NCBI GenBank assembly: GCA_023132135.1
Contig: JAGLYR010000132.1
Location: forward strand, 1-10,090
From: Candidatus Eiseniibacteriota bacterium
GTDB lineage: Bacteria; Arandabacterota; Arandabacteria; JAGLYR01
Direction of reading: 5' to 3'
Length of the DNA stretch: 10,090 nucleotides
The translations under genes were made by a program, and so were the position numbers. Positions 69 through 10,090 of the stretch are shown piece after piece (position 1 is the first letter of the stretch; each line of letters starts with the position of its first letter). The notes under the pieces were generated by a model. It ran no database searches. It was given only the letters and a program-made list of their open reading frames with translations, and was not told the origin of the DNA.

Positions 69-1313
69 TCAGTTGCCCGTAATCCCTGCGCCATAGATAA
101 TGAGTTGTTTCCTTTCCACCAGGGACCAGCCACCGTTTTTCCAGTCGAACTCCTCGTAACCCTCCGGCATGGGATTGACCCGAATCGCCACTACGGCACG
201 GATGGACGGTCCGGCATTGTGGTCCCTGGCATCATCGTAGTCGTGTCCGTCCTCGTAACCGGAGGGCGAATAGCTGGAACCGCGATCGGGAGCCCCCGGG
301 GAGGTCGGTGGCACGACCAGCCGGTACGGCCCCTCGCCTTCGAGCCGGACCGAGGTGGGGTCCAGATGCGCCTGGTCCAGTTCACTTCCGTCACGGCCGT
401 AGGCAATCATGAGCCTTGCCTCACCGGGGATGGTCCCGCCATCCACCAGATCCCCGGGGATGTGCTCCTCGCCGGGGTAGGTGACGAAACCCTGATCCGG
501 ATCGCCGAAGCTTCCAGAATCCAGATTGGCGCAGTAGAGTCCCGGCGGGTATGCCTTCCTGATGGCATCAATCTCGAAATCCCTGGCGTACCCGTCCGGG
601 GCAATGAAGGTCACCGTCGTGGCGCTGCCGAGATCCGCGCCCGCTGCCGTCAACAGATTCTCGACTGTGACACCGCGATACGTGGCGTAGAAGTCTGACC
701 GCTGCGTGTGGGAGTTCATGAGAAGAAACTGCTCGTGCACTTCCCGTGTGACGATCTCGTCGCGGGTGATCGTCCGGACCGGTACGATGGGCTGTCCGGG
801 CTTGCTGCCCGGGTCGCCCGGATACCTCAGTTCAGCAAGCTCCGCGGTGTTGGCAAAGCCGTCACCGTCGGAGTCCAGGTTCCGGATGTCCCGCAGGGCC
901 TGCGTGCTTCGCCCGGCCCACCCATAGTCCAGACCGAATGGATTAAGAGTGTTCTCGTAGCTCCCCGGGGCGCCGGAGACGATGGATGCGTCCGGATATG
1001 GAACCAGATGGCAGTACGAGCAGGGGTTGAGCTCGAGCGTCCTCTCCCCGTCGTCTACGACTTCCCCTCCCCGGTGGCAGGTCCGGCAATCGTCCACCCG
1101 CGATCCCGCGGCAGCCGGATAGACGGCGATCAGCCCGTTGCTGTCCGCGTCGTTCTCGTGCCCCTTGTAGGACAGAGATGATACAGGTTCTGGACCCCTG
1201 GAATCCGTGGATTCGTCACGATCACAACCAATTGCTACTGCGAGCGCAATAGTAAACCCCACCCCCAACACAGCCAAGTACCGTCCCACAGCTCTTCCCC
1301 TCATCCCCACCAT
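69..1313 (-). CDS. Diheme c-type cytochrome lipoprotein, GEGP-motif type
   Basis: A 414-residue exported redox lipoprotein. Residues 10-30 are a signal sequence ending VAIGC, a plausible lipobox with Cys30 as the lipidated residue. Two haem-binding CxxCH motifs follow, CRTCH (76-80) and CSYCH (98-102). Next comes a calcium-loop-like DSDGDGFANTAEL (148-159). A domain of about 200 residues (185-405) contains the strand pattern 'VTVENLL...VTFIAPDGY' and ends with GEGPYRLVVPP (326-336). I recall this layout as the 'GEGP motif-containing diheme protein' family; the C-terminal domain resembles a sulfite-oxidase fold without an obvious cofactor cysteine. It is the last gene of a three-gene operon, with its ATG one base after the upstream stop, so translation is probably coupled. 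An ATG three codons in (1302-1304) is an alternative start. A likely role is electron transfer at the outer membrane; partners are unknown. Confidence 0.85.
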   Translation of the reverse strand: MVGMRGRAVGRYLAVLGVGFTIALAVAIGCDRDESTDSRGPEPVSSLSYKGHENDADSNGLIAVYPAAAGSRVDDCRTCHRGGEVVDDGERTLELNPCSYCHLVPYPDASIVSGAPGSYENTLNPFGLDYGWAGRSTQALRDIRNLDSDGDGFANTAELAELRYPGDPGSKPGQPIVPVRTITRDEIVTREVHEQFLLMNSHTQRSDFYATYRGVTVENLLTAAGADLGSATTVTFIAPDGYARDFEIDAIRKAYPPGLYCANLDSGSFGDPDQGFVTYPGEEHIPGDLVDGGTIPGEARLMIAYGRDGSELDQAHLDPTSVRLEGEGPYRLVVPPTSPGAPDRGSSYSPSGYEDGHDYDDARDHNAGPSIRAVVAIRVNPMPEGYEEFDWKNGGWSLVERKQLIIYGAGITGN

Positions 1314-1314
1314 G

Positions 1315-3411
1315 CTACCGCGTAACCAGGATTTTCCCGACTCTCCGGCAATCGCCCGTTCTCACATCGCAGAAATACACTCCGCTGGCCACGCGACGTC
1401 CGTCGTCGTCTTGCCCGTCCCACACAACAGTATGCTCGCCGGCCATGTGGAAACCGGTTGCCAGAGTCCGTCGTTTCCGCCCGGAGACGTCGTAGATTGC
1501 CACTTCTGTCTCGCCCGCGTGGGGAACGACAAAAGCGATATGTGTCTCCAGACTGAACGGGTTCGGATGGCCGGGTCTGAGGGCGAGCGACGCATCGGGT
1601 TCCCGGAGTTGACCCTCAGTACCGCTGGGCCTCGTGTACAGCGACGCCGTGACCTCCAGTTCCTGTGTCAACACCACGGATTCGCTGTTGGAGAACACCG
1701 CGCACCATGGCTCCGACGCAGGCAGCACGAAATCAACCGTATCGCCTGAGCTGTCCCGCCGGATTTCGAAGGCGTCGAAGCTTTCCCCTGCGATGTAGGA
1801 ATTGAAATTCACCTCGTTGCAGATAAAGAAATCGATATGCCCCGGCGAGATCGGTTCCGAGAAACGGTTGCGATCATCGAAGTTCTTGCCGTAGAGAACT
1901 TCCGACGGCACACTGTACTCGACGACAAGCCGGTAGTCGTCTGTCGGGTTTGCCGGAAGAGTGTCGGGAGAAACACCGGTCACGGGAATGGTCCCGGGCA
2001 GGGTAACATTCCACTCGTAACGCACACCCGCCACGCTGCCGGTGATGATCGTCTCCAGACCGACGGGAGGATAGCCCCCAATGCCGCTGGCCGCGCGCGC
2101 ATCAAAGTCGCGGTTGTCACCCAGGAAAAAGCGCTTGTGCCCATCGCGCCCGGTCCAGCCCGCGGTCGATCCCCAGATCGCCACGCACGGCTCACTGAGT
2201 ATCTTGATTTTCACGCCATCAACCGGATGCCCCTCACTGTCGGTGACGTTCACGTCGAGCGTACACACGTCCGTGTACCGTTCCGTGGTATCCCAGATGA
2301 AGCTGTCGCCGCGCCAGCTGAATACGGTTGCAACGTCCCATCCCCAGTTCTCGTAGCCCTCCGGGTAATCGATGAAGGTGTTGACCGGTTCCCAGGCAAT
2401 CCAGCGCCTCTCCCAGAACTCGTTGATCTTGTGGTTGTCGCTGTACATTGCAGTCACGGCTGCAGGTATGAGCGCAGCCCGAGCGGCAGCCGAAGTCAGA
2501 TAGGAATGGACGCTGCAGGTGCCGATGTGCTGGTGATATATCCGGACAGGTTGGTCGTGATGTGGATTCGACTGGAAGGTCATCACGTCCTTGATCCATT
2601 GCGTAAGGGCGCCGACCGCTCCATTGTCAACTGTGTTCTGTTGGCATTTCCACAGTACCGAACAACTCTCCAGACATGTTCTCAGAAGCGGATAGCCGGT
2701 GTCGTTGTGATTCATCAGGAAGTCCCGCCAGAACACACCCGTTGGTGGATCTGCGGGGAGCCCGGTGGCGGGGTTGATGTAGCCCGGCGTTTCCTTGTGC
2801 AGTTTCGGATGGACGATGTGCCAGTAGTAGATGTCCCGGGGCAGCTCGAGCTCCACCACATCCTCGCCCTCAAGGACTCTGTACAGAACAGTCGAGTAGT
2901 AGTCCTCGCCACCGTAGTCGACGATATCCGCGTAGTCGAGACCGGAATCGATGGCATACAGTGATTCGACATTCTCCAGCAACACGTCGGTACTGCCCGA
3001 GGCAGAGAGTATCTCCGGAGCAATGTGAGCTACCTCGAAGCAGATCTCATCGATGTACGGGTACACCGCGTTGATGATCAGAGCCGCGTGGAGATTCTGG
3101 CTGGTCTCATCGAGTCTCCGGAAATTGTCCCTCAACGCAGATCGAAGCCAGCCGGGGGCAATAGCCACGGCGGCTTCGGCATCCGGCGTGAGATTGTCGC
3201 ACGCCGGTACCACTCCAATAGAGCACGGCGAGGATTCCAGCGAAATGTGACACTGCTCCCCGGCCGGTACAAGGTCCGTGAACGACACGGAATCCACGAG
3301 TATCCACTGTGCGTTGAGACCGGTTGCGGCAAAAACCGAACACAACACAAGAGAAACAACCGCCGCCTTCGGAACTGGCAATGTGATGTTCGTTGTCATC
3401 ACCCCCATCAT
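1315..3411 (-). CDS. Secreted transglutaminase-fold protein with T9SS-type C-terminal domain
   Basis: A 698-residue exported protein with a signal peptide in residues 8-35 ending LNAQ. The middle carries the transglutaminase-like core: GTCSVHSYLTSAAARAALIP with Cys299 at the head of the helix, DNHKINEFWERRWIAWEP with His327, and NTFIDYPEG with Asp348. This is a complete Cys-His-Asp triad, so a peptidase, amidase or crosslinking activity is plausible. Residues 383-440 resemble a carboxypeptidase-regulatory-like beta domain (DSEGHPVDGVKIKIL...WTGRDGHKRFF). Residues 611-698 are a FlgD-like type A sorting domain (HPNPF, IYDVSGRKRRTL, VVWDGQDDDGRRVASGVYF), suggesting T9SS export and surface attachment. 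Three start codons compete: M1 and M2, 4 nt after the upstream stop with a weak ribosome site, and M5, preceded by GGGGGTG. It sits between the C25-like gene and the diheme gene. The substrate is not readable from sequence. Confidence 0.85.
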   Translation of the reverse strand: MMGVMTTNITLPVPKAAVVSLVLCSVFAATGLNAQWILVDSVSFTDLVPAGEQCHISLESSPCSIGVVPACDNLTPDAEAAVAIAPGWLRSALRDNFRRLDETSQNLHAALIINAVYPYIDEICFEVAHIAPEILSASGSTDVLLENVESLYAIDSGLDYADIVDYGGEDYYSTVLYRVLEGEDVVELELPRDIYYWHIVHPKLHKETPGYINPATGLPADPPTGVFWRDFLMNHNDTGYPLLRTCLESCSVLWKCQQNTVDNGAVGALTQWIKDVMTFQSNPHHDQPVRIYHQHIGTCSVHSYLTSAAARAALIPAAVTAMYSDNHKINEFWERRWIAWEPVNTFIDYPEGYENWGWDVATVFSWRGDSFIWDTTERYTDVCTLDVNVTDSEGHPVDGVKIKILSEPCVAIWGSTAGWTGRDGHKRFFLGDNRDFDARAASGIGGYPPVGLETIITGSVAGVRYEWNVTLPGTIPVTGVSPDTLPANPTDDYRLVVEYSVPSEVLYGKNFDDRNRFSEPISPGHIDFFICNEVNFNSYIAGESFDAFEIRRDSSGDTVDFVLPASEPWCAVFSNSESVVLTQELEVTASLYTRPSGTEGQLREPDASLALRPGHPNPFSLETHIAFVVPHAGETEVAIYDVSGRKRRTLATGFHMAGEHTVVWDGQDDDGRRVASGVYFCDVRTGDCRRVGKILVTR

Positions 3412-3415
3412 TCGG

Positions 3416-5182
3416 CTACTTCAACAACAGGCACTTCCTGGTGACACTGGAACCGTTGACCGTAACCCGGTAGAAATAGAGACCGGAACTCGCCGCCCCG
3501 GCGTCCCAGGCAACGGAGTGGCTCCCAGCCCGCTCGTCTTCGTCAACGAGGGTCTCGACCAGCTGACCCCTGAGATTGTAGATCTGCAGCGATACTCTGC
3601 CCGCTTGCGCCAGGCTGTAGGAAATGCTGGTGACCGGGTTGAACGGGTTGGGATGATTCTGGTGGAGGACAACATCCGCAGTCGACGGTCGTGGCGCCGT
3701 CTCTTCCTCGACACCGGTCGTAGCAAACTTGCAGGTGAAGACAACTTCTCTTGTCTCCCCCTCCGCCAGCGACGGCTGTCCCTGGTGCCAGACGTACATG
3801 AGGGCGAAGTCATCTTCCACGACCGTCGTCATGGCATCCGTGTAGATGATCTCGACCTCTTCCGCCCGGAAGGGCAGGATTGTTGCAGGGTGGCGCTCAC
3901 CCCACTTGCTGGTGAAGCCGGGGTTTCCTTCCCGATTCATCGTAATCCTGAAGGTGACCGTATCCCGTTCGGCTCTTCCACTGACAATCGTCAGTTCGCT
4001 CTCGAAGAGCGGCTGCTGGAAGACGCCGTCGTTGGACATGGTCATCTGCATTGCAGGATCGCCGTAGAGAGCTGAGCCGTTGAGATCCGGAGGATTCGTT
4101 CCGGGCGTGCCGTTGATGATGTCGAACTGCAGCGCCTGATTTCCAAGGAAGAAGGCCTCCGCCCAGGTGTATCCTCTTGCCACCCTGTAGAAGTACGCTT
4201 TGGTTGCCCCGTGCTGGCAGGAAGTCGAACCTTCAGGGATGACGTAGCCGGTATACTGCCGCGCCGCGCCGGTGCGAATCCAGGAGGGCGGCATGGAACT
4301 GCTCGACAGGATCTGGCCGATGTTGCAGTTGCCGAGACCAAAGTAGATCTTCGGATTGGACGAATTGATGTTGATGTTGGGCAGCCCACCGTGCGGGTCT
4401 CCATAGACCTGAACATCGCTGGAGCGGAAGTATCCCTCGAGATCCGTCGTCGGGTAGTGCAACTGCCACACATCGTGGCCGCCATGCCCGCTGGTGTAGA
4501 AGATATCGACCGGGTCGTAGTTGAATATGTCGATACCTTCGTTGATCATGGTAACGAGCCATTCCGTTCTGTCGGTGGGGCCGTCGGTGTGGGTGGTTGT
4601 CGTCAGGGACTCAGGGGACTTCACGTAGTAGAGACCATGGGTGCCCTCGCTGGTGCCAATCCCCTGGGTGTAGTACGCCAGGTCACAGGATGCGGTCCCG
4701 CCAAGAACGGTTTTTATCTCAACCCCCGCGGGATCGGAGAAGAGACCCATGGCATCGTCAGCATCGTAACCGGTAACGATGCCCCAGATGGCATCGCAGT
4801 AGGGATCGTCATCCAGGGCTCTTGTGAAAGGCCAGATGCTGTTTGACACAAAACTGGGCGAGGCAACAAAAATCTTGCAGACGAAGGCGATGTGCGTTGG
4901 CTGATAGGCCGCCACATCCGCCAGCACCTCGTCGAGGGCAACCGACCAGATAAACAGTTGGGCCGAGTACTTCGCCACGAGTGCATCAGCCACAGCTTTC
5001 CAGTTGGGACGATTGTAGTTCGACTCTTTGATGACCACCGCGTAGGCAAACGGTTCTACCCTGTCCATCGCGGGATTCCCGTTCCAGGAATGTGCGCCGC
5101 CCAACTCCTGCGCGTGGGCAGGCGCGGTGCAAAGCAGCAACACGGGTACAAGAAGATAGAGAACCAGTCGCTTCCGCATCAT
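3416..5182 (-). CDS. Secreted caspase-fold (peptidase C25/gingipain-like) protein with T9SS-type C-terminal domain
   Basis: A 588-residue exported protein, first gene of the operon. Residues 1-25 are a signal peptide (MMRKR, hydrophobic core, APAHAQ). The catalytic-looking part carries clan CD signatures: a hydrophobic strand into TSGHGGHD (His233), then a strand into FGLGNCNIGQ (Cys286). ALYGDPAMQM (371-380) matches the 'GDP' block that follows the catalytic domain in many C25 proteins. A beta-rich region (about 395-485) precedes the sorting domain at 506-588 (HQNHPNPFNPVTSISY, IYNLRGQLVETL, HSVAWDAGAASSGLYFYRV). The start at 5182 is well supported: AAGGAGG lies 6 nt upstream. The His and Cys pair suggests an active cysteine peptidase, but substrate preference cannot be read. 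No long propeptide is evident, unlike true gingipains. A non-proteolytic caspase-fold role remains possible. Confidence 0.85.
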   Translation of the reverse strand: MMRKRLVLYLLVPVLLLCTAPAHAQELGGAHSWNGNPAMDRVEPFAYAVVIKESNYNRPNWKAVADALVAKYSAQLFIWSVALDEVLADVAAYQPTHIAFVCKIFVASPSFVSNSIWPFTRALDDDPYCDAIWGIVTGYDADDAMGLFSDPAGVEIKTVLGGTASCDLAYYTQGIGTSEGTHGLYYVKSPESLTTTTHTDGPTDRTEWLVTMINEGIDIFNYDPVDIFYTSGHGGHDVWQLHYPTTDLEGYFRSSDVQVYGDPHGGLPNININSSNPKIYFGLGNCNIGQILSSSSMPPSWIRTGAARQYTGYVIPEGSTSCQHGATKAYFYRVARGYTWAEAFFLGNQALQFDIINGTPGTNPPDLNGSALYGDPAMQMTMSNDGVFQQPLFESELTIVSGRAERDTVTFRITMNREGNPGFTSKWGERHPATILPFRAEEVEIIYTDAMTTVVEDDFALMYVWHQGQPSLAEGETREVVFTCKFATTGVEEETAPRPSTADVVLHQNHPNPFNPVTSISYSLAQAGRVSLQIYNLRGQLVETLVDEDERAGSHSVAWDAGAASSGLYFYRVTVNGSSVTRKCLLLK

Positions 5183-5216
5183 TTCCTTCCTCCTTCGCTC
5201 CCGGACCTGTTAGAGA

Positions 5217-5234
5217 TCAGGCGACACAGCCTGA
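5217..5234 (-). promoter_or_regulatory. Leader hairpin upstream of the C25-like gene
   Basis: TCAGGC (5217-5222) and GCCTGA (5229-5234) form a 6-bp stem with a 6-nt loop, between the candidate promoter and the ribosome site at about 5188-5194. It could stabilise or modulate the operon leader. It is short and could be chance. Confidence 0.3.
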
Positions 5235-5251
5235 GGATTACTCCGTCTGCA

Positions 5252-5260
5252 ATTATAGCA
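5252..5260 (-). promoter_or_regulatory. Candidate extended -10 promoter for the three-gene operon
   Basis: On the minus strand this reads TGCTATAAT, a perfect extended -10 (TGnTATAAT), in a locally AT-rich patch. Transcription would start near 5245, leaving a leader of about 60 nt before the ATG at 5182. No good TTGACA -35 lies at the usual distance, as is common for extended -10 promoters. If the organism uses a Bacteroidota-type sigma factor with different preferences, this match may not be the real signal. Confidence 0.45.
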
Positions 5261-5328
5261 CAAATGCAGACATAACGCCAGAGGCAGTTTCACGCATTCA
5301 TTCCCGGCGGGTTCCCCCCTCACCCCAC

Positions 5329-5883
5329 TTCGGGCTTTCCATCCATGCCCTCTCCCTGCCTGCGTACGCCTGTGATGGGATCGACCCTGTGGATCTGATC
5401 CCCGGGGACGAAGAATGCACGGGCGTGACCCTCGACGGGGCAACGTTAGGCGCCTACACTCTGGCAGAGCTGACCGCTGTGATCAACGGCGAGGCGTTTC
5501 TCTACACCGGCTACGGCTGGATTGCATCCGCGTTCCAGAACTACCAGGTGGATGTGGGTGGAAAAGCCTCGTTGACTCTGAGCCTCTTCAATCAGGCAAC
5601 GCCGGCCAACGCAGAAGCACTCTACAATGATCCCCAGAGCGGGAGCGGTGATCCGGTGACCGGCTGGAGCGGAAACGGGGATGCTCGTATGACATCCGCC
5701 TTCGGAGTGACAACCCTTCAGTTCTGGGAAGAGTGCCTGTTCGGCAAGGTGCTTGTCATGGCACAGGGGCAGGCGGCGGTAGACGCTGTGCGGTGCCTGG
5801 CGGAGAAGGTGGTTACCGACATTCAGGGGCAGACACCTTTGGATGTTGAGACCTGGACGGCGATCAAGGCCATGTACAGATAG
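5329..5883 (+). CDS. DUF6599-like exported protein; 5' end unresolved, possibly truncated
   Basis: The body is convincing: YTLAELTAVINGEAFLYTGYGW, then FQNYQVDVGGKASLTLSLFNQATPANAEALYND, then a beta-rich end. This matches the DUF6599 pattern (…YINGEAELYFPYGF…, …MGSxxDAFGIY…), a family of unknown function. Just before it, GLSIHALSLPAYA|CDGID looks like the end of a signal peptide with an AYA cleavage site. However, no ATG, GTG or TTG lies in frame between 5092 and 5389. The frame stays open back to an ATG at 5092, but that stretch overlaps the divergent gene and its promoter and does not read like protein. The GTG at 5389 would remove the export signal and has a poor ribosome site. The coordinate given is the first plausible signal-peptide residue, not a start codon. 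Loss of the 5' end, a frameshift or an unusual start are all possible. The DUF362 gene follows after 109 nt, probably as a co-transcribed partner. Confidence 0.6.
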   Translation, partial: FGLSIHALSLPAYACDGIDPVDLIPGDEECTGVTLDGATLGAYTLAELTAVINGEAFLYTGYGWIASAFQNYQVDVGGKASLTLSLFNQATPANAEALYNDPQSGSGDPVTGWSGNGDARMTSAFGVTTLQFWEECLFGKVLVMAQGQAAVDAVRCLAEKVVTDIQGQTPLDVETWTAIKAMYR

Positions 5884-5992
5884 GAAGCCGGGTTCCGCCA
5901 AGGGCGGGGCGAAACGACGCAGATGCGTATCGCGGCGAGGAAAGAGTTGGGGCGACTCGGTGGGTCGCCCACTTTCATACAGGGGGACACCA
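5884..5992 (+). promoter_or_regulatory. Structured leader with three hairpins before the DUF362 gene
   Basis: This gap holds three potential hairpins: CCGCC-AAG-GGCGG (about 5896-5908), ACGC-AGAT-GCGT (5917-5928), and the strongest, GGGCGAC (5950-5956) with GTCGCCC (5964-5970) around a 7-nt loop. The last is followed by a short T-containing stretch and then the ribosome site AGGGGG (5981-5986) 6 nt before the ATG. No hairpin has a T-run, so a terminator is unlikely. A regulatory leader, a processing site or an internal promoter region is possible. I could not match it to a known riboswitch class. Confidence 0.3.
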
Positions 5993-7471
5993 ATGAAGAG
6001 CGACGGAGGAACCGGAAAGCGGCGACCGAAAACAAAGCACCCGGGGTTCGGGATTGCCAAGCGGACGGACGGCGTCACCCGCCGGAAGTTCCTTCGGAAC
6101 ACCGCAATCGTGACCGCGGGAGCCATCGTTGGGCCGAAGTTCTATGTCCCGGGCTGGGCACAGACCCGGGCCAAATCCAAGATCGTTCGCGCATTCCATC
6201 CGGATGCCACCACCGGCTGGTCCCAGGTCAATCAGGAACCCGTCACCATCATGGTTCACGCCGCGGTCTGTGAGCTCACGGGTATCGACAACACGGCCGA
6301 CGCATGGAAGAGTCTGTTCCCTGGAATGACGACTGCCAGCAAGGTTGCCATCAAGATCAACCTGGCCTGTGGCGACGTTCCGACCCATCCGGAGATGGTC
6401 AACGCCATCATCGACGGCCTGCTGATGATTGATCTGGAAGGGGGACCGCTGCCGGAAGAGAACATCATCGTTCATGACATGGACAACGCCTTCTTCTGCG
6501 CCCAGACCGGCTACGTCCAGAACTGGGGTGGCCCCGGCGTTCAGTACGTGGGCACGGACCATCCGAGCCTGGGCTGGGACAATGCCTATGTTTTCCCCAT
6601 CAGCCATCCGCACGGCTCGATCACGAACCACAAGCCGTCCAAGATCATTACCCAGCACTGCGACTATTTCATCAACGCGGCGGTGATCAAGGACCACTCG
6701 GACTCCGACGTTACCCTCTGCCTCAAGAACCACTACGGGTCCTTCAGCAACGTGCCCATCTCCCAGCTCCACCAGCATGGGTACTACGGGGATGGACACA
6801 CGCGAGGAGAGCCCGAGTTCAATCGTCTGCTGAGAGATGAGCTGGGTGACAAGACGAAGCTATGGCTGATCGACGGGACCTACGGATTGTTCGACGGAGG
6901 TCCCGGCTACGTTCCCCCATACCACACGCCGCCCAACTGGGCATACAACAGTGTAATCGTCGGCTTTGACCCTGTGGCCATCGACCGGATCGGAACGGAG
7001 AAAATCAACGAGGAGCGGATCAAACACAAGGACGATCCCATTCCACCGAGTCCGCTCATTCTGGATCCGAGCCACGTGACTGCAGCGGCGGGTGCTCCTT
7101 ACGACCTGGGAACTGATGATCCGGGCAACATCGATCTGGTGGAGTTCGATGCTTCGGCCACGACGGGAGTCGATGACTTCCGGCCCGGCCCTGGCCGAGA
7201 GCCGCTCCTGACGACGTACCCCAACCCCACCCGCGCTGTGTCCAACGTCCGTTTCAGCTGTCCTCGTGACGGAGATGTGGAAATGGTGGTTGTGGATGTC
7301 CGGGGACGGCTGGTGCGCCGGATCGCCCAGGGCCGCTACTCCCGCGGCATGCACCACCTGCAGTGGGACGGACGAGACGAGGGGGGAAGAGCCGTGGCCA
7401 GCGGCATATACTTCTGCCGTGCGGACATCGCCGGCCGCCGCCGGCAGCGTAGAATTGTGGTGTTGAGGTAG
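5993..7471 (+). CDS. DUF362 protein with Tat signal and T9SS-type C-terminal domain
   Basis: A 492-residue exported protein. The start at 5993 follows AGGGGG by 6 nt and places a twin-arginine signal, TRRKFLRNTAIVTAGAIVG, at residues 29-47. An upstream ATG at 5843 would overlap the DUF6599 gene. The DUF362 domain spans about 95-390: VAIKINLACGDVPTHPEMVNAIIDGL, VIKDHSDSDVTLCLKNHYGS, and VIVGFDPVAIDRIGTEKINEE, where the 'DPVAxD' block is typical. No ferredoxin-type Cys clusters are present, unlike many DUF362 proteins, so a bound Fe-S cluster is unlikely. Residues 405-492 are a FlgD-like sorting domain (TTYPNPTRAVSNVRF, VVVDVRGRLVRRI, LQWDGRDEGGRAVASGIYF) with a very arginine-rich end. Tat export would mean it folds in the cytoplasm, perhaps around a cofactor. 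The biochemical role of DUF362 is not settled. Confidence 0.88.
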   Translation: MKSDGGTGKRRPKTKHPGFGIAKRTDGVTRRKFLRNTAIVTAGAIVGPKFYVPGWAQTRAKSKIVRAFHPDATTGWSQVNQEPVTIMVHAAVCELTGIDNTADAWKSLFPGMTTASKVAIKINLACGDVPTHPEMVNAIIDGLLMIDLEGGPLPEENIIVHDMDNAFFCAQTGYVQNWGGPGVQYVGTDHPSLGWDNAYVFPISHPHGSITNHKPSKIITQHCDYFINAAVIKDHSDSDVTLCLKNHYGSFSNVPISQLHQHGYYGDGHTRGEPEFNRLLRDELGDKTKLWLIDGTYGLFDGGPGYVPPYHTPPNWAYNSVIVGFDPVAIDRIGTEKINEERIKHKDDPIPPSPLILDPSHVTAAAGAPYDLGTDDPGNIDLVEFDASATTGVDDFRPGPGREPLLTTYPNPTRAVSNVRFSCPRDGDVEMVVVDVRGRLVRRIAQGRYSRGMHHLQWDGRDEGGRAVASGIYFCRADIAGRRRQRRIVVLR

Positions 7472-8920: not shown

Positions 8921-9094
8921 TTGCGCTTGTGCAACTCTAGTCGCGAGAACGCGTCGTGCAGGTGCAGCCCTCAGGTCTTCCGTCTCCTCCAGAGCCAGCT
9001 GCCCGATGGATCTAATTGACTATGACACAAAGTGTTGAACGGTTGCTCCCGGCAGCCGTGATCGTTGGCACAGCGTGTGCGATGGACGCACCTT
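8921..9094 (+). other. Intergenic stretch without a recognised gene
   Basis: There is no coding frame with family resemblance or a good ribosome site before GGAGG at 9095-9099. TTGACT (9016-9021) and TTGAAC (9035-9040) look like -35 boxes, but neither has a convincing -10 at the right distance. A promoter for the DUF5320 gene is expected here but cannot be pinpointed. Confidence 0.4.
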
Positions 9095-9107
9095 GGAGGT
9101 GATGAAC

Positions 9108-9413
9108 ATGCCGAGAGGAAATGGAACGGGACCTATGGGGATGGGGCCCATGACAGGCCGAGCGGCGGGCTACTGCGCCGGCTTCGGGGTTCCTGGGTAC
9201 ATGAATTGGGGTGGAGGTGGGAGCGCACGTGGACTAGGTTGGCCAGCGGTGCCGGCGGTGCCGGCGGCAATGCCTTGGCAGGGCCCGGCAGCATATGCTC
9301 CCATGGCCTACGGTTACCGATCAAGGTTCGGCCGGGGCTTCGGCCGCGGATTGGGTCGCGGCCGGGGCCGCGGGTTTGGCCGAGGCTGGTGGGGCCGTGG
9401 ATGGGGATGGTAG
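9108..9413 (+). CDS. DUF5320 protein, N-terminal part with Gly/Arg-rich tail
   Basis: A 101-residue protein starting with the DUF5320 head MPRGNGTGPMGMGPMTGRAAGYCAG, followed by PGYMNW. GGAGG (9095-9099) lies 8 nt before the ATG at 9108; the ATG at 9102 is too close to it. Residues 47-55 are a Pro/Ala/Val repeat. Residues 71-101 are a Gly/Arg/aromatic tail (RFGRGFGRGLGRGRGRGFGRGWW...), resembling an RGG-type low-complexity region. The frame stops at TAG (9411-9413) without the C-terminal coiled coil that DUF5320 proteins usually carry; that coiled coil follows in another frame. DUF5320 proteins are small and of unknown function, and are often encoded near iron-molybdenum cofactor (NifX/NifB-like) and Mrp/ParA genes. 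The single Cys in the head (Cys23) is typical of the family. Confidence 0.8.
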   Translation: MPRGNGTGPMGMGPMTGRAAGYCAGFGVPGYMNWGGGGSARGLGWPAVPAVPAAMPWQGPAAYAPMAYGYRSRFGRGFGRGLGRGRGRGFGRGWWGRGWGW

Positions 9414-9748: not shown

Positions 9749-9776
9749 TCCGGTACAGACAAAGGTGGTGATAAGT

Positions 9777-10090
9777 ATGCCAGGATTTGACGGAACAGGA
9801 CCGTTAGGACAAGGCCCGATGACGGGCCGGGGAATGGGCTATTGTGTGCTGAATATCTTAGAGGGCGCCCCCCTTCCTCCCGCGTTTGAACAAAACGTTC
9901 TCGCACGTAGTGAACAAGAGACAGATACCTTCAAGGAAACAGGAAAGGAGGTGATAACGATGCCAGCAGGTAATGGAACAGGACCGTTAGGATTTGGCCC
10001 GATGACGGGCCGGGCCGCCGGGTATTGCGCAGGCTACCCAGTGCCAGGCTACATGAATCCCGTAGCGGGCAGAGGCGGATATTACGGCCA
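9777..10090 (+). CDS. Two DUF5320 heads in one open frame (partial, runs off window)
   Basis: ATG at 9777, with GGTGG (9764-9768) 8 nt upstream, opens MPGFDGTGPLGQGPMTGRGMGYCVLNILEG, a DUF5320-type head. After residue 23 the sequence is unlike the Gly-rich family body and is hydrophilic (EQNVLARSEQETDTFKETGKEVIT). With no stop codon the frame continues at codon 62 into a second, better head: MPAGNGTGPLGFGPMTGRAA, then GYCAGYPVPGYMNP. It remains open at the window end (104 codons seen). The second head has its own ideal ribosome site. Two separate genes are therefore expected by translation signals, yet the reading frame fuses them. Codon choice (GGA, CCG TTA GGA, ACA) is more AT-leaning than in the first DUF5320 gene, suggesting a separate origin. 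Confidence 0.65.
   Translation, partial: MPGFDGTGPLGQGPMTGRGMGYCVLNILEGAPLPPAFEQNVLARSEQETDTFKETGKEVITMPAGNGTGPLGFGPMTGRAAGYCAGYPVPGYMNPVAGRGGYYG
9946..9962 (+). promoter_or_regulatory. Internal ribosome-binding site and second start
   Basis: AGGAGGTGAT (9946-9955) is a near-perfect anti-16S match, 8 nt before the ATG at 9960. It lies inside the open frame begun at 9777 and encodes KEVI there. It should drive independent translation of the second DUF5320 head (MPAGNGTGPLGFGPMTGR). Confidence 0.75.

Follow-up and report, generated by a model that had tools for sequence, protein, structure and literature searches.

A conserved gene pair for a gingipain-like peptidase and a transglutaminase-fold protein with T9SS sorting domains, next to a diheme lipoprotein gene

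Gene content of the locus

The window, meaning the entire stretch of DNA analyzed here, spans one whole contig (10,090 bp) from a MAG of 3.4 Mb, so genes beyond the diheme gene are lost. Three adjacent genes on the minus strand encode a cysteine peptidase, a transglutaminase-fold (TG) protein, and a diheme lipoprotein, with intergenic gaps of 4 nt (peptidase/TG) and 1 nt (TG/diheme); an earlier note on this DNA had described the same layout, and the ORFs confirm it. The assignment in that note of a T9SS sorting domain to both enzymes agrees with TIGR04183 scores of 38.0 and 23.5 bits (cut-off, 23), and its identification of the third product as a GEGP diheme lipoprotein is borne out by NF041762 (472.8 bits; cut-off, 300) and by two CxxCH motifs. 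Like its authors, we found no named system of this composition. The features are as follows.

3416..5182, minus strand: predicted gingipain-like (C25-fold) secreted cysteine peptidase, 588 aa (ORF, AF2 model, VIA-align, 80 homologous loci)
4028..5056, minus strand: peptidase catalytic domain, residues 43-385 (residues invariant in 45 homologues; VIA-align to RgpB)
4484-4486 and 4325-4327, minus strand: codons of the predicted peptidase catalytic residues His233 and Cys286, respectively
3722..4006, minus strand: beta-rich, presumably Ig-like domain, peptidase residues 393-487 (strands in the model)
3419..3676, minus strand: T9SS type A sorting domain of the peptidase (TIGR04183, 38.0 bits; PF18962, 35.8 bits)
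1315..3411, minus strand: predicted secreted TG protein, 698 aa (PF01841, 30 bits; in 25 loci its homologue is the next gene downstream of the peptidase gene)
2272..2844, minus strand: TG core, residues 190-380 (invariant residues in 30 homologues; family profile matches peptide:N-glycanases)
2515-2517, 2431-2433, and 2389-2391, minus strand: codons of TG residues Cys299, His327, and Glu341, respectively (invariant in 30 homologues)
1990..2271, minus strand: carboxypeptidase-regulatory-like beta domain, TG residues 381-474 (VIA-align Z 10.3 to 3e8v, 25% identity)
1318..1596, minus strand: T9SS/FlgD_ig C-terminal domain of the TG protein (PF13860, 36 bits; TIGR04183, 23.5 bits, cut-off 23)
69..1313, minus strand: GEGP diheme lipoprotein, 414 aa (NF041762, 472.8 bits)

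Further genes lie on the plus strand. The ORF at 5092-5883, whose start is probably further in, is divergent from the peptidase gene and encodes a DUF6599-like protein (E = 0.0012, below the cut-off); considered as a conserved partner, it was rejected because it has no relative in the homologous loci. The DUF362 protein encoded at 5843-7471 is a possible Tat-exported T9SS cargo, since it combines a twin-arginine signal (TIGR01409, 17.2 bits; cut-off, 16.7) with a tail of the T9SS/FlgD_ig kind. Two neighboring genes at 9075-9413 and 9765-10088 encode small proteins that are rich in glycine and contain GTGP and GYC motifs; the product of the first gene matches DUF5320 (48.3 bits).

Gingipain-like peptidase

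Pfam recognizes only the C-terminal tail of the peptidase; the match to PF01364 (C25) stays below the cut-off (9.1 bits against 23; E = 0.94), and a plain sequence search of the solved structures with this protein gave no match. The AF2 model, made from 45 homologues, has a mean pLDDT of 87.7. Foldseek with the full model listed mostly beta domains, and a gingipain surfaced only with VIA-align, which superimposes residues 43-385 on RgpB (1cvr) with a Z score of 22.4 and an rmsd of 3.2 over 278 residues at 13% identity. The Z score of the gingipain match is well above those of the unrelated rows. His233 and Cys286, which had been read as an intact catalytic pair, are both present and are kept without exception in the 45 homologues, down to ~26% identity. 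Together, the gingipain-fold match in the model and these invariant residues identify the predicted protein as a divergent gingipain-like peptidase, belonging to a sister family to C25.

In several peptidase relatives, the N terminus is extended by Big_7 Ig-like domains, and one of these extended proteins also has a weak carbohydrate-binding match. Thermoguttaceae bins from animal guts contain tandem copies of distant homologues (28-31% identity; L102, L105, and L106) without a TG gene.

Transglutaminase-fold protein

The TG protein of the window matches PF01841 at 30 bits (cut-off, 23), a family matched by 19 of 19 members of the TG family. Its TIGR04183 score is barely over the cut-off; the Pfam family Por_Secre_tail exceeds its cut-off for the peptidase only, and FlgD_ig catches the TG tail. 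Cys299, His327, and Asp348 had been proposed as the catalytic residues. The first two are invariant in 30 homologues, but Asp348 is replaced by Asn in 6 of them and aligns with a later D-x-P motif, and it was rejected in favor of Glu341, which is invariant and aligns with the catalytic Asp of peptide:N-glycanase.

A profile of the TG core from 19 sequences matches three peptide:N-glycanase structures with E values of 9.4e-10 to 5.5e-9 (2f4m, 9.4e-10; 1x3w, 4.9e-9), with XPC next, weakly, and no further TG structure among the solved structures up to an E value of 10. The core of the window's protein by itself matches no solved structure, so the link to peptide:N-glycanases is carried by the TG family. 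A stand-alone TG paralogue of a related genome matches mouse peptide:N-glycanase on its own (2e-5), and another TG protein encoded in the window's genome matches 3kd4, a putative protease. At the level of sequence profiles, the TG core thus groups with the peptide:N-glycanase/XPC branch of the TG superfamily. The model of the TG protein is weak around the active site, with residues 316-360 below a pLDDT of 50, and a structure search with it gave no TG-core match among the matches listed, the core being modeled at low confidence.

Yeast Png1 requires a CxxC zinc motif (PMC2866665); the Caenorhabditis elegans peptide:N-glycanase has CxxC motifs, yet zinc does not activate it (PMC3502110). No CxxC is found in the window's TG protein or, among the 30 homologues, in the 150-residue stretch that leads up to the catalytic Cys. 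Peptide:N-glycanases have a conserved Arg, two Trp, and a Glu close to the active site (PMC3502110), of which the window's protein retains one Trp (Trp337) and the Glu (Glu331), with Val319 in place of the Arg and Ile329 in place of the Trp at His+2. The Cys-His-Asp triad of these enzymes is likewise incomplete, as Cys and His are kept and Glu341 replaces the Asp in 30 of 30 homologues. Because of the Glu in place of Asp, the lack of CxxC, and the loss of the Arg and one Trp, the TG protein is not a peptide:N-glycanase by the sequence criteria applied here.

Conservation of the peptidase-TG pair

When species genomes were scanned with the peptidase alignment, 80 loci were recovered. Of these, 53 reach at least 35% identity and have 400 nt or more of downstream sequence; the TG gene lies directly downstream of the peptidase gene in 25 of the 53 and upstream in 3 more, with spacings that range from overlaps to 499 nt (a 4-nt overlap in six). 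The pair is carried by about nine phylum-level groups, with linked genes in, among others, Eisenbacteria, Cloacimonadota, a Bacteroidales bin, WOR-3, TA06, Zixibacteria, Fermentibacteria/Aegiribacteria, Latescibacterota, and Tariuqbacter. At some Cloacimonadota loci, the TG gene is followed by genes for one or two other T9SS-tailed proteins and then by the peptidase gene. Since the first two of the three genes are conserved neighbors in many phyla of uncultured bacteria, their arrangement exceeds chance, which does not hold for the diheme gene. The peptidase and TG genes are a conserved two-gene unit.

Distances among the peptidases and among the TG proteins of 26 pairs are closely correlated (Mantel r = 0.957; as high in 0 of 5,000 permutations), and common species history contributes to this value. 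In the TG tree, the pair-linked proteins form nearly one group (2 label changes versus 9.7 in shuffles); more distant TG paralogues are solitary, amid unrelated genes, and one solitary paralogue is found elsewhere in the window's genome. Only about half of 27 genomes in which no TG gene adjoins the peptidase gene have a near-full-length TG elsewhere. In the window's phylum (eight genomes), three others have peptidase homologues, none of them beside a TG gene, with one homologue lying where its contig ends. The window's pair is closer to the pairs of other Eisenbacteria bins. Among relatives, the synteny that the earlier note envisaged is thus seen for the two enzyme genes over the wider range, and not for the diheme gene or among the closest relatives.

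The gene neighborhoods offer no conserved third gene beside the pair that would fit a dedicated substrate of its own. Extra peptidases sometimes occur beside the pair or at related loci (C10 in L056, C1 and C25 in L049, and M28 in L062), but among the 25 commonest families listed, near neighbors show no visible excess of peptidase families over far ones. T9SS tails are present in 15 of 97 near neighbors versus 7 of 97 far ones. In the open-access literature, a scope that leaves out most subscription papers, we found the pair described nowhere.

Diheme lipoprotein

The diheme protein contains CRTCH at residue 76, CSYCH at residue 98, and GEGP at residue 326, along with a lipobox-like AIGC whose last residue is Cys30. 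Neither a relative of it nor any protein with two CxxCH motifs is encoded in the 80 homologous loci, and the full-length gene is present in only one of the eight genomes examined from its phylum. The diheme gene was rejected as a third partner on these counts and is probably a local addition outside the conserved unit. Of the three-gene unit first proposed, the two intact-looking T9SS-tailed cysteine enzymes stand as a pair, and the diheme gene as third member falls away. The diheme_GEGP model had no matches in four genomes of another phylum, a search that had no positive control. In two related genomes (L005 and L006), proteins of ~900 aa give weak partial matches to this model.

Secretion system and genome setting

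Homologues of two parts of the type IX secretion system (T9SS), the channel protein SprA (SprA_N) and the PorV family, are over their cut-offs in all eight genomes of the window's phylum. In the window's genome, sorting-tail matches number 64 and PF01364 (Peptidase_C25) matches 27, the latter looking like an unusually large set for 3.4 Mb. Given these numbers, two tailed neighbors alone would be unremarkable; it is the conservation of the pair that is remarkable. The T9SS, the tails, and the PF01364 matches point to a protein-degrading lifestyle. One strong canonical C25 match, on C141, lies closely upstream of a PorV homologue and, because of that proximity, is a candidate for, and likely is, the PorU of this genome.

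Proposed function and alternatives

The reading that we favor, with a probability of roughly 0.55, is that the pair is a conserved cassette of T9SS-exported cysteine hydrolases attacking extracellular protein, possibly glycoproteins. Both enzymes would be exported via Sec and then displayed at the surface or released by the T9SS. The peptidase would make endoproteolytic cuts, with Cys286 as the nucleophile and His233 as the base, and the TG enzyme would use Cys299-His327-Glu341 for amide cleavage, in the protein backbone or at the link between Asn and a glycan; the products would be taken up as nutrients. The diheme lipoprotein would be an incidental neighbor, cotranscribed with the pair in the window's genome. 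C25 and other extracellular peptidases have been tied to sediment protein breakdown (PMC6752024), and a gingipain-like peptidase has been reported for Cloacimonadota (PMC8542988). A more specific proposal, which we regard as unlikely, is that the TG protein is a secreted deglycosylating amidase of the peptide:N-glycanase/XPC branch and the pair a strip-and-cut cassette for extracellular glycoproteins; if true, the pair would mirror, outside the cell, the route by which eukaryotes dispose of glycoproteins in the cytoplasm.

The two enzymes might instead act on the cell's own T9SS cargo, with the peptidase trimming or anchoring it in a PorU-like manner and the TG protein crosslinking it at the surface. 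The T9SS tails on both enzymes, the numerous T9SS-tailed proteins in the genome, and the fold that PorU shares with the peptidase (Z 9.9, whole model) would suit such a role, which is nevertheless doubtful: the likely PorU is the match on C141 upstream of the PorV homologue, the pair is without a conserved partner gene beside it, and sequence searches put the TG core nearer to the hydrolytic peptide:N-glycanases than to crosslinking transglutaminases. It is very unlikely that the enzymes are effectors of competition that harm surface proteins of rival cells. They are predicted to be secreted, and their patchy distribution over phyla is consistent with horizontal transfer, but no conserved immunity-like gene is found beside the pair. 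Least probable is a three-gene system in which the two enzymes process or crosslink the surface diheme protein, as the earlier note had suggested. The 1-nt gap between the TG and diheme genes does suggest cotranscription; however, with the diheme gene absent from the homologous loci and so rare in its phylum, the idea loses its main support.

As a cassette of exported hydrolases, the pair would extend the extracellular protein degradation toolkit of little-studied sediment phyla by a recurring two-enzyme unit, the peptidase family of which is nearly invisible to Pfam. The TG protein would provide a secreted bacterial foothold for the fold branch that holds peptide:N-glycanase and the DNA repair protein XPC.

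Comparison with known systems

The gingipains RgpB and Kgp (C25) resemble the window's peptidase in the fold of the catalytic domain (Z 22.4 and 21.5, respectively), in a His-Cys dyad within GH and NC motifs, and in the beta-rich domain that follows the catalytic domain and precedes a T9SS C-terminal domain. The window's peptidase differs from them in its low identity (~13%), its position below the Pfam C25 cut-off, its N terminus, where no gingipain propeptide was seen, and its TG gene partner. PorU, the T9SS sortase, also combines the C25 fold with a T9SS tail, but it is a far larger protein of the secretion machinery than the 588-aa peptidase, and a better candidate for PorU adjoins a PorV homologue elsewhere in the window's genome.

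For the TG protein, the Bacteroides fragilis TG-family protein 3e8v, solved as a fragment only, has a similar C-terminal beta domain. The top-scoring solved structures for the TG core profile are from the branch comprising cytoplasmic peptide:N-glycanase (PNG1/NGLY1) and XPC/Rad4. Unlike PNG1/NGLY1, the window's protein is predicted to be secreted and T9SS tailed, has Glu for Asp, and is without the CxxC zinc motifs, the conserved Arg, and the His+2 Trp. It shares with the branch the aligned Cys and His, the Trp and Glu represented by Trp337 and Glu331, and, past the core, D-x-P...Y...W and RY motifs.
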